Source: Acidobacteria subdivision 13 bacterium RH2 MAG17b
GTDB taxonomy: Bacteria; Acidobacteriota; Terriglobia; UBA7540
Reading direction: 5' to 3'
DNA length: 43,114 bases
Assembly: GCA_002197525.1 (NCBI GenBank)
Contig: NFUN01000059.1
Coordinates: 1-43,114, forward strand
The notes beneath the pieces were generated by a model. That model made no database searches. It was not told the origin of the DNA and saw only the letters and a program-made list of their open reading frames with translations. Below are positions 31,012-41,099 of the stretch, in pieces; position 1 is the first letter of the stretch; each line of letters begins with the position of its first letter. Position numbers and translations under genes: made by a program.

Positions 31012-31086
31012 GCGGGGGTAATTCAGCGGTAGAATGCCAGCTTCCCAAGCTGGACGTCGCGGGTTCGATCCCCGTCCCCCGCTCCA
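31012..31086 (+). tRNA. tRNA-Gly (anticodon CCC)
   Basis: The full cloverleaf can be drawn: acceptor GCGGGGG paired with CCCCCGC, a four-pair D stem (ATTC/GAAT), anticodon stem CCAGC/GCTGG around the loop TTCCCAA with anticodon CCC at 31044-31046, and a T arm GCGGG-TTCGATC-CCCGT. The discriminator is T and the CCA end is encoded. It reads GGG glycine codons. Its 3' half is the attachment site of the adjacent island and is duplicated at 41054-41099; the intact copy is this one. Confidence 0.97.
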
Positions 31087-31087
31087 T
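31042..31087 (+). repeat. Attachment site, integrase-proximal copy (46-bp direct repeat)
   Basis: These 46 bases are identical to 41054-41099. The repeat begins in the anticodon loop of the tRNA and runs one base past its CCA end, as expected for a tyrosine recombinase that crosses over in the anticodon loop or 3' half of a tRNA gene. Confidence 0.95.
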
Positions 31088-31122
31088 CTTTTCAACAACT
31101 TAGAGAAACTGATCAAAGGGCG

Positions 31123-31142
31123 TACTCCAATATACTCCATTA
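31123..31142 (+). other. Candidate integrase arm-binding sites, left end
   Basis: TACTCCA occurs at 31123-31129 and 31133-31139, one helical turn apart, the second extended to TACTCCATTA. The same pair in the same orientation occurs at 40934-40954 inside the other end and nowhere else that I noticed. Directly repeated short sites inside both ends are typical of arm-type binding by tyrosine integrases. The integrase stop codon lies in the second unit. Confidence 0.5.
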
Positions 31143-32231
31143 CATGACGCGCAAGGCCGATTCGAAGGTGTTCAAGGCTTCCTTGCGAAGGCCAAGCGCG
31201 GTCTTGGTGTAAACGTTCAAGTCTACGTCAACTGAATGCCCGAGCTGGTCGGCCACTATCTTTGGATCGACCTTCAGTTCTCGCATAAGGGATGCGTGGG
31301 TGCGCCGCATCACCTGGAAATTCACCCATTCGAGGCCAACTGACTTCAGCCTGGGTGCAATCCACCGTCTCCAGCAATTGTCTTTCGACAGCGGAGTTTT
31401 CAGGGTCTCCGAAGGGAACACCCACGCCTCCGGGCCGGGATCGCCGGATCGCGATCTCCACCGGGCGATCTCGGACTGTAGACCCTGGGAAAGCGCGACA
31501 CTCCGTTTGGACTGATTCGTCTTGGGAGAGTCTATCTTTCCTCTGTACAAACGCTGTTCGATCTCGATGTGGTCGGCATTGACGTGCCGCCACTTAAGGC
31601 CGAAGATCTCGCCGGGCCGCATACCTGCTATGGTGGCAAGCATGCAGACCGCGAGTTCTCTTGCCTCAAGGACCGAAAAAAGTAACCTGACCTCCTGCCA
31701 CGTCATGACACGCTGAACGGGGCGCAGGGTCTTGTTGGGCGTAAACAGAAGAGCGGCGGGATTCTTCTGCAAGTAGCCTTCGACGACCGCCATGCCGAAG
31801 ATTTGCTTCATGTCCCATCGCAGATGATCCACCGTACTGAACGACAATCCGGCGATGGCCTTCCGGTCTAAGAAATCCTGCAATTCGCTCGCCTTGAATG
31901 ATTTCAATGCGAAGTCGGCGAATTCGCAGGTGAGGTGATGTTCCAGGCGGTCTAGGTTGCACGCCGTGGTGGAACTCTTCCACTTGCGGCGATACCAGGG
32001 GAGATAGACTTGGTTCACGAAATCACCGAACTTCCAATCTTCCGATGGGCCATCCTGTTTCGTGTTAATGGCGGCCAAAATCTCCGCCAGCTTGTCCTTT
32101 GCTTGGGACTTCGTAACCTTGCTGACCTTCCCAAGCAGTTTGTTTCGGCGGTGTCCTTCTTCCCACCATTGGGCAATCCAACGTCCACGAGCAATCTTCA
32201 AACTTCCTTCCTGATGCCGTTTACGACTCAT
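31140..32231 (-). CDS. int: Tyrosine recombinase/integrase
   Basis: The 363-residue integrase has an N-terminal arm-binding region (KIARGRWIAQWWEEGHRRN), a SAM-like core-binding domain (about 65-165) and the catalytic domain. Catalytic residues are Arg205 in GMRPGEIFGLKW, a lysine in SPKTNQSKR (237/242), Arg309 in FQVMRRTHASL, His332 in QLGHS and the nucleophile Tyr341 in NVYTK. The first histidine of the usual H-x-x-R box is replaced by Gln306. It should join the tRNA-Gly site with the island. It is the last gene of a unit with the excisionase-like gene, whose end overlaps its start by 11 bases. Confidence 0.95.
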   Translation of the reverse strand: MSRKRHQEGSLKIARGRWIAQWWEEGHRRNKLLGKVSKVTKSQAKDKLAEILAAINTKQDGPSEDWKFGDFVNQVYLPWYRRKWKSSTTACNLDRLEHHLTCEFADFALKSFKASELQDFLDRKAIAGLSFSTVDHLRWDMKQIFGMAVVEGYLQKNPAALLFTPNKTLRPVQRVMTWQEVRLLFSVLEARELAVCMLATIAGMRPGEIFGLKWRHVNADHIEIEQRLYRGKIDSPKTNQSKRSVALSQGLQSEIARWRSRSGDPGPEAWVFPSETLKTPLSKDNCWRRWIAPRLKSVGLEWVNFQVMRRTHASLMRELKVDPKIVADQLGHSVDVDLNVYTKTALGLRKEALNTFESALRVM

Positions 32232-32490
32232 GAGACTCTCCTCTCATGGGTCTAGCGGCGCCGACTTCCGGCGACACGGGCATCATAGCATCAAACGCGC
32301 CTCTTTCATTTGCTCTTTTCCATCGCTCCAGTGCGGAGCGGCGGACAAGCTTCCTCCTGCCCATATGAATCGCTGGAAGCGCCGAGACGCCCGCCACTTT
32401 GCCATTGATCGCATTGTGTACGTGGGCCTTGGAGCATCGCAGCTCTGCCGCGACTTCGGCCACGGTGAGAACCTCATCATGGGCTGTCAT
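32221..32490 (-). CDS. Excisionase-like helix-turn-helix protein
   Basis: The 89-residue protein is a winged-helix DNA-binding domain of the excisionase/MerR-like kind: VLTVAEVAAELRCSKAHVHNAINGK, then PAIHMGRRKLVRRSALERW. This family bends DNA at attachment sites to favour excision or acts as a small activator. AAGGTG lies just before the ATG. Its position between initiator and integrase genes and its overlap with the integrase start suggest it controls the direction of recombination. The C-terminal 30 residues are not conserved in the fold. Confidence 0.82.
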   Translation of the reverse strand: MTAHDEVLTVAEVAAELRCSKAHVHNAINGKVAGVSALPAIHMGRRKLVRRSALERWKRANERGAFDAMMPVSPEVGAARPMRGESHES

Positions 32491-32531
32491 AATTCACCTT
32501 TATGTTCCGGCGGACACTTCCTTCGCCTCGC

Positions 32532-40132: not shown

Positions 40133-40140
40133 CTGGCGCG

Positions 40141-40464
40141 CTACTCTTCCCCCTGGTCGTCGTCCTCGCCTTCCTTTTCTTCGGACGGGGCTACGATATC
40201 GGCAATTTCATCGACTTGGCTTTGGAGTTCTTCGTTCTGCTGCTCCAATTCCTTGATTTGTTCCATCAGTTCGCGTCGGGTTGGGATTGGCATTTTCTTT
40301 GCTCCTTTCGGATTCACAAGCTTGATGTGCCGTCGCTCGGCGTATTCATCAAGCGATTCGTCATCGATTTCGTCGGCAAGGTCGTCGTCCTCGCGAACAT
40401 CGCGGGTGAAGCGAACGGCCTGGGCCTTTCGAGATTGAAGCTGTTTGCGTGTTAGGGTCTTCAT
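40141..40464 (-). CDS. Small acidic coiled-coil protein
   Basis: The 107-residue protein has a basic start (MKTLTRKQLQSRKAQAVRF), a central acidic stretch (REDDDLADEIDDESLDEYAE), a predicted coiled coil (RRELMEQIKELEQQNEELQSQVDEIADIV) and an acidic tail. No family is recognised. It lies directly upstream of the HNH nuclease gene and could bind or restrain it, but this is inference from position. Confidence 0.6.
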   Translation of the reverse strand: MKTLTRKQLQSRKAQAVRFTRDVREDDDLADEIDDESLDEYAERRHIKLVNPKGAKKMPIPTRRELMEQIKELEQQNEELQSQVDEIADIVAPSEEKEGEDDDQGEE

Positions 40465-40545
40465 GCCCGCATGATAGGTGTCGCGGGGGTTCGCGGTCTA
40501 GCCCCGCAAATTAGCGGGATTTCTGTAAGCAGAAAATCGACTGGA

Positions 40546-40941
40546 TTACTTTGGCGAGTCACCCAGTCGTGGCGCGCCCCGCCTCCGCGCGATGGCGGCG
40601 CGTAGTCCCTTTTCGGCCAAGTAACGTCCGTAGGTGTCCAAACTGTTGAACCCTGGGATTTGCGACCGGAGTACGTCTTTGACGGTCTTTCCTTGGTGGA
40701 CCATTCGGACGGCGGCATCTATTCTGGGATTGTTAGGGCGCCCTCGCCTCGGCGGTAGCTGCTGCCGGATTAGCCGGATGATTTGTTTCTTGAATCCCTG
40801 TGGATCGCGGGCAATCTGGTCTTGGAAACGGCCTCTGAGTCCAGAGACGAACTGGCTTATGGTTTGCTCAATATTTTGGGAGGAAACCGCTCTTCGGCTA
40901 TTAACCGAGGTCTCCCGAAAGCGCGGGGTTTTGTACTCCAT
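40546..40941 (-). CDS. Small basic protein with possible helix-turn-helix
   Basis: The 131-residue basic protein shows helical segments FVSGLRGRFQDQIARDPQGF and a C-terminal region PRIDAAVRMVHQGKTVKDVL followed by YGRYLAEKGLRAAIARRR that could form a helix-turn-helix. No family is recognised. It is the first minus-strand gene at the right end of the island. Its start codon lies in an 11-bp tandem duplication (ATGGAGTACAA twice), which is also the candidate integrase arm site. Confidence 0.6.
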   Translation of the reverse strand: MEYKTPRFRETSVNSRRAVSSQNIEQTISQFVSGLRGRFQDQIARDPQGFKKQIIRLIRQQLPPRRGRPNNPRIDAAVRMVHQGKTVKDVLRSQIPGFNSLDTYGRYLAEKGLRAAIARRRGAPRLGDSPK

Positions 40942-40954
40942 TTGTACTCCATTA
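40934..40954 (+). other. Candidate integrase arm-binding sites, right end
   Basis: TACTCCA occurs at 40934-40940 and 40945-40951, the second extended to TACTCCATTA, 11 bp apart and oriented as at the left end (31123-31142). An 8-bp inverted pair (CAAAGGGC at 31114-31121, complement at 40972-40979) also links the two ends. Confidence 0.5.
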
Positions 40955-41053
40955 ACGGGAGTACCGGAGCAGCCCTTTGAAAATAGGAGAGTTATAGTCG
41001 CCGAAAATCAACGCGGTAGACCCTATGTTCTTTATTTTCAATCAAGGGTCAAT

Positions 41054-41099
41054 TTCCCAAGCTGGACGTCGCGGGTTCGATCCCCGTCCCCCGCTCCAT
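41054..41099 (+). repeat. Attachment site, distal copy (46-bp direct repeat)
   Basis: This is an exact copy of 31042-31087 and contains the anticodon loop and 3' half of tRNA-Gly. The 5' half is missing, so it is not a tRNA gene. It marks the right boundary of the island. Confidence 0.95.

Follow-up and report, generated by a model that had tools for sequence, protein, structure and literature searches.

What kind of mobile element is a 10-kb island that holds genes for its own excision and replication and shows no transfer gene, and by what means would it reach new cells? These questions are raised by contig NFUN01000059.1, a stretch of 43,114 nucleotides (nt), analysed here over its full length (the window), from a soil bacterium of the Terriglobia (phylum Acidobacteriota), whose metagenome-assembled genome (MAG) comprises 2.8 Mb in 169 contigs and is 89.7% complete. 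The island spans positions 31042–41099 (approximately 10 kb). Our analyses suggest that it is probably a helper-dependent integrative element (a "hitcher", in the terminology of the accessible text of PMC11389934) that would spread defence genes in the Terriglobia. At the level of sequence, it demonstrably belongs to a modular family in which the synteny is fixed and the cargo, the replication module and the integrase are swapped. A four-gene operon at one of its ends (o131-o107-HNH-cc445) recurs in elements of about 7–11 kb that have other integrases, other tRNAs, other replication proteins and other defence cargo.

The ten open reading frames (ORFs) of the island were scanned with Pfam, PHROGs and NCBIfam, and six of the ten with PADLOC. 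The families found were an integrase, an excisionase-like helix-turn-helix (HTH) protein, an initiator, a further HTH protein, a Type ISP restriction-modification (RM) enzyme, a protein with an HTH_17 domain and a coiled coil, and an HNH nuclease; relaxases, type IV secretion systems (T4SS) or other secretion genes, coupling proteins, terminases, portals and capsids had no match among the ten ORFs (Pfam, PHROGs, NCBIfam). These scans uphold the first-pass annotation of this DNA, which had proposed a mobile island with a full excision set (int and xis) and its own replication gene, lacking conjugation and virion genes.

Integration at tRNA-Gly(CCC) and the arm-type sites

The ends of the island and its integration module consist of the following features:
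31012–31086, plus strand: intact tRNA-Gly(CCC), the host attachment gene (ARAGORN)
31042–31087, no strand: attL core, 46-bp direct repeat
31123–31142, no strand: tandem arm-type sites TACTCCAATA/TACTCCATTA on the attL side; relatives hold a tandem pair at the same place
31140–32231, minus strand: int, tyrosine integrase of 363 amino acids (aa) (Phage_integrase, 7.6e-16)
32221–32490, minus strand: xis, HTH_17 excisionase-like protein of 89 aa (HTH_17, 8.4e-9), adjoining int in relatives
40934–40951, no strand: tandem arm-type sites TACTCCA on the attR side
41054–41099, no strand: attR core, 46-bp direct repeat

The two core repeats are identical at 46/46 bases, are spaced 10,012 bp apart and occur nowhere else in the 2.8-Mb MAG. 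ARAGORN found a single tRNA in the window, tRNA-Gly(CCC), and the attL repeat forms the 3' part of this gene; because it begins in the anticodon loop, the tRNA remains whole. The earlier description of perfect repeats and an integrase next to an intact tRNA is thus accurate. Base composition does not clearly mark the island border. An empty attB in the same neighbourhood was sought in relatives compared by eye and set aside, the flanking EgtB-like gene and the tRNA-Gly copies being on separate contigs. The intergenic DNA upstream of the tRNA (30640–30950) belongs to a dispersed repeat family: a 580-bp query around it gave 14 matches including itself, on other contigs of the same genome (82–94%) and also in some relatives.

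Residues R205, K237, R309, H332 and Y341 of the integrase, which we take to be catalytic, are invariant in its alignment (A1). In 84,980 species genomes the integrase matched at 29 loci, viz. 28 in Acidobacteriota and one distant match in Melainabacteria (22% identity); a separate search found matches in 29 of 200 relatives at E<=1e-60. An att core lies 55–105 bp past int in 25 of the 28 acidobacterial loci (two have less than 200 bp downstream), xis precedes int in 18 (four have less than 300 bp upstream), and ARAGORN places a tRNA-Gly beside int in 16 (one TCC, the rest CCC). Some members are decayed, with a broken int in G005 and a split int in L071. Hence islands related to this one exist, as had been anticipated, both through the integrase family at tRNA-Gly and through the operon family described below.

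The int/xis module is common to relaxase-bearing islands, an ICE-like (integrative and conjugative element) 48-kb element and a lambda-type phage. Transfer-type genes accompany this integrase family in L055 (MobA/MobL), L059 (Relaxase and coupling protein), L054 (Relaxase/DUF3363) and the island of G013 (TrwB-like ATPase and Replic_Relax). The G013 contig holds three perfect att copies (C18:128242-180122) that delimit intervals of 47.9 and 3.9 kb, of which the larger is ICE-like. This ~48-kb interval, which is an int-family element but does not hold the complete operon, also contains coupling-protein-like, type III RM and DrmD-like genes, and the 3.9-kb interval retains o131 and only the end of int. 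L055 and L059 lie ~21 kb apart on JASHPG010000205.1, each with a relaxase-type gene; their arm codes differ, and each att core departs from the window's at 3/46 bases. Among viral sequences, a 27-kb IMG/VR contig (L167) encodes an integrase of the same family (47% identity) preceded by a short HTH/xis gene, together with a gpA terminase and a lambda-type portal, and has arms (TACCCCA) on both sides of an att core with no upstream tRNA; by its gene content, L167 is evidently a temperate (lambda-type) phage carrying the int/xis module. A second contig (L166) has the integrase next to tRNA-Gly(CCC); its ORFs at first suggested a possible prophage, but the two large ones that match Pfam are TraG/TrwB-like.

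Between the cores the island carries four copies only of TACTCCA (at 31123, 31133, 40934 and 40945), two just inside each core, with tandem copies spaced 10–11 bp. The whole 43-kb window has 10 copies against ~4 expected by composition; a chance origin of the arms is rejected because all four island copies sit at its ends, which look like those of a real, working attP. TACTCCA arms also occur on both sides in G013 and G006 (integrases 74% and 82% identical); G005, with its broken int, has eroded right arms and a partly decayed arm code. G002, whose integrase is 53% identical, has the arm code TTACGACA at the int end of one contig and at the att copy of another, and these two contigs are therefore probably the two ends of one island. 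ACGACA was also read at the right end in G019 (C28) and on the int-bearing contig L062, which looks like G019:C244 from match and identity. Since the arm code matches at both ends and differs between lineages, the ends and the integrase belong together.

The generality of these arms was assessed in 29 int-proximal segments of 75 bp, drawn from the window, G013, 25 of the 28 acidobacterial loci (the three without att left out) and two viral contigs, some genomes recurring under a locus identifier (L046 = G006, L049 = G008, L060 = G002). An exact repeated 7-mer is present in 26 of the 29 segments (shuffle mean 2.8, maximum 7), and mismatches in the best tandem 9-mer pair number 0.62, compared with 3.4 after shuffling. 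The codes read in different lineages are TACTCCA, TGCTCCA, GTGCTCCG, GAGTCCA, TTACGACA, GAGCAC, ATATTCC and TACCCCA. Identity of the integrase N-terminus is associated with arm identity beyond catalytic identity among 21 integrases (partial 0.30, permutation 0.013), the catalytic-identity term being not far behind (0.096) and the 8-mers being framed by eye, so the indication that the N-terminus tracks arm identity is suggestive only. Element-specific arm sites at one shared tRNA appear to be an unexpected extra of these elements, and through their diversity nature supplies a range of integrases, possibly orthogonal, for a single attB.

The attR-end operon and the exchanged modules

The operon beside attR and the adjoining cargo gene are as follows:
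40546–40941, minus strand: o131, basic protein with a GRP motif, operon gene 1, beside attR
40141–40464, minus strand: o107, acidic protein, operon gene 2
39695–40132, minus strand: HNH nuclease, operon gene 3
38231–39568, minus strand: cc445, HTH_17 domain and coiled coil, operon gene 4
34702–38133, minus strand: Type ISP RM enzyme, 1143 aa, cargo

Three of these conserved genes (the second HTH_17 protein cc445 and the small ORFs o107 and o131) were absent from the earlier gene listing. In the family scans o131 had no meaningful match and o107 had weak coiled-coil matches only; in PDB profile searches o131 gave chance-level matches and cc445 matches to its HTH alone. The predicted o131 fold has a predicted local distance difference test score (pLDDT) of 50.9, too poor for a structure search. 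Twelve of 200 genomes, including that of the window, have a match to o131, and 35 of 399 genomes of the class have one to o107, many of the o107 matches being partial and covering the coiled-coil half only. Operon loci were picked by these matches, so that o131 and o107 are present by construction and HNH and cc445 are not. The order o107 then HNH, adjacent and co-directional, was observed in 14 loci of 10 genomes; cc445 comes next in 12 of the 14 (split in L146 and L161; L103 is cut by the contig end) and o131 precedes in 8 of the 14. Looser versions without HNH are present in L149, L152 and L154–L158. Identity to the window's proteins is 50–81% for HNH (A2), 17–74% for cc445 (A4) and 38–74% for o107 (A3).

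The operon occurs with the present integrase family in the window and G006, and in G002 and G019 via matched arms, and it also occurs with other integrases at tRNA-Pro, -Thr and -Met. A repeat of the tRNA end was looked for at 11 operon loci, and in six of them it bounds the operon or its looser form:
L094: tRNA-Thr, 46-bp repeat, 7.4-kb element
L155: tRNA-Met, 47-bp repeat, 7.5-kb element
L156: tRNA-Glu, 45-bp repeat, 10.4-kb element
L154: tRNA-SeC, 43-bp repeat, 10.3-kb element
L095: tRNA-Met, 27-bp repeat, 10.7-kb element
L093: tRNA-Pro, 17-bp repeat, 7.9-kb element

The same search gave no convincing repeat in L096, L147, L099, L149 and L157. Because HNH recurs within a conserved four-gene operon, it is part of the core; of the payload first proposed (a restriction enzyme and an HNH nuclease), only the restriction enzyme retains that role.

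HNH proteins 39–60% identical to the island's are also common to six IMG/VR contigs (L105–L110). In two of these (L106, L107) HNH is joined in one frame to phrog_9437 (of unknown function), and most other scanned proteins of the six have no PHROG match. A close tie between the operon and these viruses was considered and rejected: the o131 and cc445 profiles found nothing in the HNH viral contigs, and the viral matches of cc445 are confined to the HTH region. The matches between ORFs of the island and those of the viruses are limited to HNH, o107, antisense frames of these two, and recombinases. One operon variant (L157; G261:C1) contains a DnaB-like helicase, an SLT lysozyme-like protein and, in place of HNH, two small proteins with hydrophobic C-termini; it could be a tailless-virus-like relative.

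The cargo enzyme has the methyltransferase core and the Type_ISP C-terminal domain that define its class (Type_ISP_C, PF18135, 2e-81, and N6_Mtase, 2.9e-6, both above cut-off) and matches the PADLOC type IIG model at 3.4e-273. Its translation contains the stretches DPACGTG, NPPY and PD...EAK, which are presumably its functional motifs. An enzyme 62% identical is present in the int-family island of G002. In G006 the cargo is a type I-E CRISPR-Cas system with Cas3e-Cas8e-Cas1e next to cc445, and in L097 SIR2-HerA and a type I RM methyltransferase stand beside the operon. The SIR2-HerA pair (L097:9476-14422) lies on the opposite strand and splits the operon between o131 and o107, as if this were an insertion spot for defence genes. 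Replication modules are likewise swapped: an O-like protein with DnaA_N in the window, Prim-Pol+AAA_25 in G002, AAA_25 in L093, CHC2/Toprim/AAA_25 in L096, DnaB+AAA_25 in L157, CHC2+DUF927 in L154 and L156, Prim-Pol+D5_N+DUF5906 in L095 and Prim-Pol in L149. The window's initiator is thus evidently a variable part of the operon family. The expectation that one int-xis-rep-repressor set would recur with other cargo fails at this point: int and xis recur, and the initiator does not, the nearest relatives of its O-like part being 28–30% identical and the siblings using other primases or helicases.

The replication and regulatory region between xis and the cargo comprises:
32532–33362, minus strand: rep, 276 aa, O-like winged-helix region and DnaA domain-I-like domain (residues 196–237)
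33359–33643, minus strand: small HTH protein, Cro/CI-type (weak), overlapping the rep start by 4 nt
33693–33729, no strand: 16-nt inverted repeat with a 5-nt spacer, between the HTH gene and orf251
33747–34502, plus strand: orf251, the sole divergent gene, no family found

Rep matches DnaA_N above cut-off, Phage_rep_O below cut-off (1e-4) and an "O-like" PHROG at 8.5e-8. In relatives, DnaA genes match its last third and four other genes cover the O-like part (two in G109, one each in G083 and G082); one rep relative (L025) shares a contig with a relative of o131. In L023 (G109:C873), beside a tmRNA, the order int, short HTH gene, O-like initiator is like that of the window, with a different integrase. 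DnaA domain I recruits the replicative helicase DnaB, and an O-like DNA-binding region with a DnaA domain-I-like end suggests loader-free recruitment of the host helicase. The predicted fold of rep (pLDDT 49.1) is too poor for a structure search. Near-repeats in rep (12-mers, <=2 mismatches) number 40 against a mean of 13.7 in synonymous shuffles, a value reached by 0 of 200; this roughly threefold excess is spread diffusely over the gene. The claim of an origin inside rep was dropped because the near-repeats are not clustered beyond synonymous shuffles.

On the minus strand the island reads attR, o131, o107, HNH, cc445, Type ISP RM, orf251 (opposite strand), HTH, rep, xis, int, attL, and in an excised circle every gene except orf251 would share one direction. 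The repressor first proposed survives as a weak Cro/CI-type HTH gene that is co-directional with rep, the divergent gene being orf251. The small HTH protein is 38% identical over 42 aa to an HTH protein preceding the primase in L096. Orf251 has no relative in 199 other genomes, no plasmid match and no Pfam, PHROGs, NCBIfam or PADLOC family; a comparable place in L096 and G006 is taken by a divergent gene of another family, of 336 and 280 aa respectively, the two products being 26% identical and unrelated to orf251. The switch is uncertain: the HTH gene runs with rep, and orf251 and the 16-nt inverted repeat are its obvious partners.

Probable helper dependence and the alternative explanations

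The helper-dependent reading can be cast as a sequence of steps. Once the HTH switch was relieved, the island would be excised as a 10-kb circle by Int and Xis bound to the arms; binding of the O-like initiator to a predicted origin, with recruitment of host DnaB by its DnaA domain-I-like end, would let the circle copy itself by theta replication. A helper would carry the island DNA into a new cell, where Int would insert it by tRNA-Gly(CCC) and leave the tRNA unharmed, and the Type ISP enzyme would protect the cell and penalise loss of the island. Going by its conservation and position, our guess is that the o131-o107-HNH-cc445 operon is the likeliest helper interface, in DNA recognition, cutting or packaging.

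A phage is our first choice of helper, at about even chances, and a conjugative element, a rather unlikely second. Favouring a phage are the phage-type initiator, the satellite-type primases of the siblings (D5_N/DUF5906, DUF927, Prim-Pol), the anti-phage cargo, the HNH shared with viral contigs, and phage L167 with the same integrase family and att. Several results weigh against the reading: rep and HNH had no match in 50,697 phage records; terminase small subunit and capsid had no match in the ten ORFs, nor was a terS-like match seen there, and cos/pac was not found, such sites being unrecognisable without a known helper; at E<0.01 the only DNA in common with the phage contigs lay in the int/att, HNH and o107 regions; the terminase PF04466, the one terminase family searched, was not in the host MAG, itself 89.7% complete; clustered iterons in rep were reached or exceeded by 41–100% of synonymous shuffles in four settings; and the putative DnaB-recruiting role of rep is deduced from domain homology only. 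Relaxase-bearing islands use the same integrase family, and the int module therefore does not point to phage. A satellite reading is possible. Its joint form, which we advance tentatively, is that these elements may be a new family of Acidobacteriota phage satellites whose hallmark is the four-gene operon, which would carry out helper recognition or DNA packaging in a way not yet described, and that at the shared tRNA-Gly(CCC) each lineage would keep its own private pair of tandem arms. If so, the operon would work regardless of which integrase, site, replication protein or cargo accompanies it, and one attB would serve phages, ICE-like elements and mobilisable elements alike without their excising each other.

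The best surviving alternative, which we nevertheless consider unlikely, is an integrative and mobilisable element (IME) without a relaxase, which excises, replicates and bears an origin of transfer (oriT) on which an ICE or IME co-residing at the same tRNA-Gly would act in trans. The relaxase islands (L055, L059, L054) and the TrwB-like ATPase of G013 in the same integrase family agree with it, and the presence of L055 and L059 on one contig and of three att copies in G013 means that such elements pile up at one site. Set against this, an oriT was not identified in the island, the conserved operon has no relaxase-like gene, and the relaxase family PF03432 was not found in the host MAG at its 89.7% completeness, a result that we also count for the helper-dependent reading.

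We also consider improbable the idea that the four genes of the operon are cargo in their own right, as a defence or regulatory system. Weak matches of cc445 to mad1 (HTH only) and of HNH to ZorE, and the SIR2-HerA pair within the operon of L097, are in its favour; however, the operon is constant while the neighbouring known defence genes change, it adjoins attR in the window, G006 and L094, and it is found with different integrases. The operon has been kept in 10 or more genomes alongside different integrases, which implies some further function in common, and for this reason an integrative plasmid, persisting through replication and integration and transferred by chance routes only, seems a poor explanation, although Int, initiator and tRNA site in a setting where transfer genes were not found would suit it, and pHS87b (11.2 kb, tRNA-Thr) demonstrates such a kind in the accessible text of its report (PMC4739549). 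A decayed prophage or fixed, immobile island, to which the absence of virion genes in the scans and the decayed relatives (G005, L071) might point, is very improbable given the identical repeats, open int, xis and rep and intact arms, and the recurrence of the same small gene set in other genomes means that decay is not its source.

Comparison with known systems

Acidobacteriota are major soil bacteria whose mobile-element biology is little described. Our literature search (titles and abstract openings, with few subscription papers covered) found no description of such islands or of phage satellites in Acidobacteria, in keeping with the initial suggestion of an undescribed type. Earlier work reported genomic islands of Solibacter that lie close to tRNAs and carry integrases (2011; PMC3174227), and a 2018 survey counted 35 prophages in 19 acidobacterial genomes, of which those without virion genes could be satellites (PMC5900883). 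With a hallmark operon and defence cargo that can be exchanged, the present modular family makes the question of how islands without transfer genes move testable with named genes.

The island resembles phage-inducible chromosomal islands (PICIs), as characterised in the consulted parts of PMC6092414, in its size, att boundaries, integrase at one end, HTH regulators, own replication gene, defence cargo and lack of virion genes. It differs in that no primase/rep pair, terS, cos or recognised phage interference gene was found (PMC6092414). It has the specific attachment site and own integrase of PICIs; in place of a pri-rep module with origin it has an O-like initiator, with no primase match in the ten ORFs and no iteron cluster in rep. 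Small size and an integrase with a PF12728 HTH gene recall the phage-inducible chromosomal minimalist islands (PICMIs) of Vibrio, as far as the available text describes them (PMC10803314). In contrast, the window lacks their DUF3987/DUF5906 primase (the sibling L095 has DUF5906), and the site is tRNA-Gly rather than fis (PMC10803314), so that of the set integrase, AlpA-type PF12728 gene, primase and fis site only the first two are represented. By their gene content, therefore, the island would be neither a PICI nor a PICMI, and the PICI-like label first given to it holds merely in outline, since neither the primase nor the packaging genes or sites by which these groups are recognised were found in it.

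With IMEs and relaxase-less iOriT elements, in the sections of PMC11389934 available, the island has in common an excision module, a probable dependence on helpers and relatives of its integrase family that carry relaxases; it differs in having no relaxase and no recognised oriT (PMC11389934). The Pseudomonas aeruginosa plasmid pHS87b is alike in its 11 kb, its integration at a tRNA 3' end and its phage-related genes, and differs in tRNA and host and in that, according to the portion of the report consulted, the free plasmid was observed, whereas the island is known from its sequence alone (PMC4739549). As to the remaining classes, the relaxase gene of relaxase-type IMEs, the T4SS and coupling protein of ICEs, and the terminase, portal and capsid of temperate prophages are all missing from the ten ORFs, and the integrase, att site and replication gene of integrative plasmids are all present. 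Compared with phage lambda, the island has a DnaA domain-I-like end in place of a P-like helicase loader and two tandem arms per side where both were read; it shares with the lambda-type int/attP system a tyrosine integrase, a core with arm sites on both sides, Xis and an O-like initiator.

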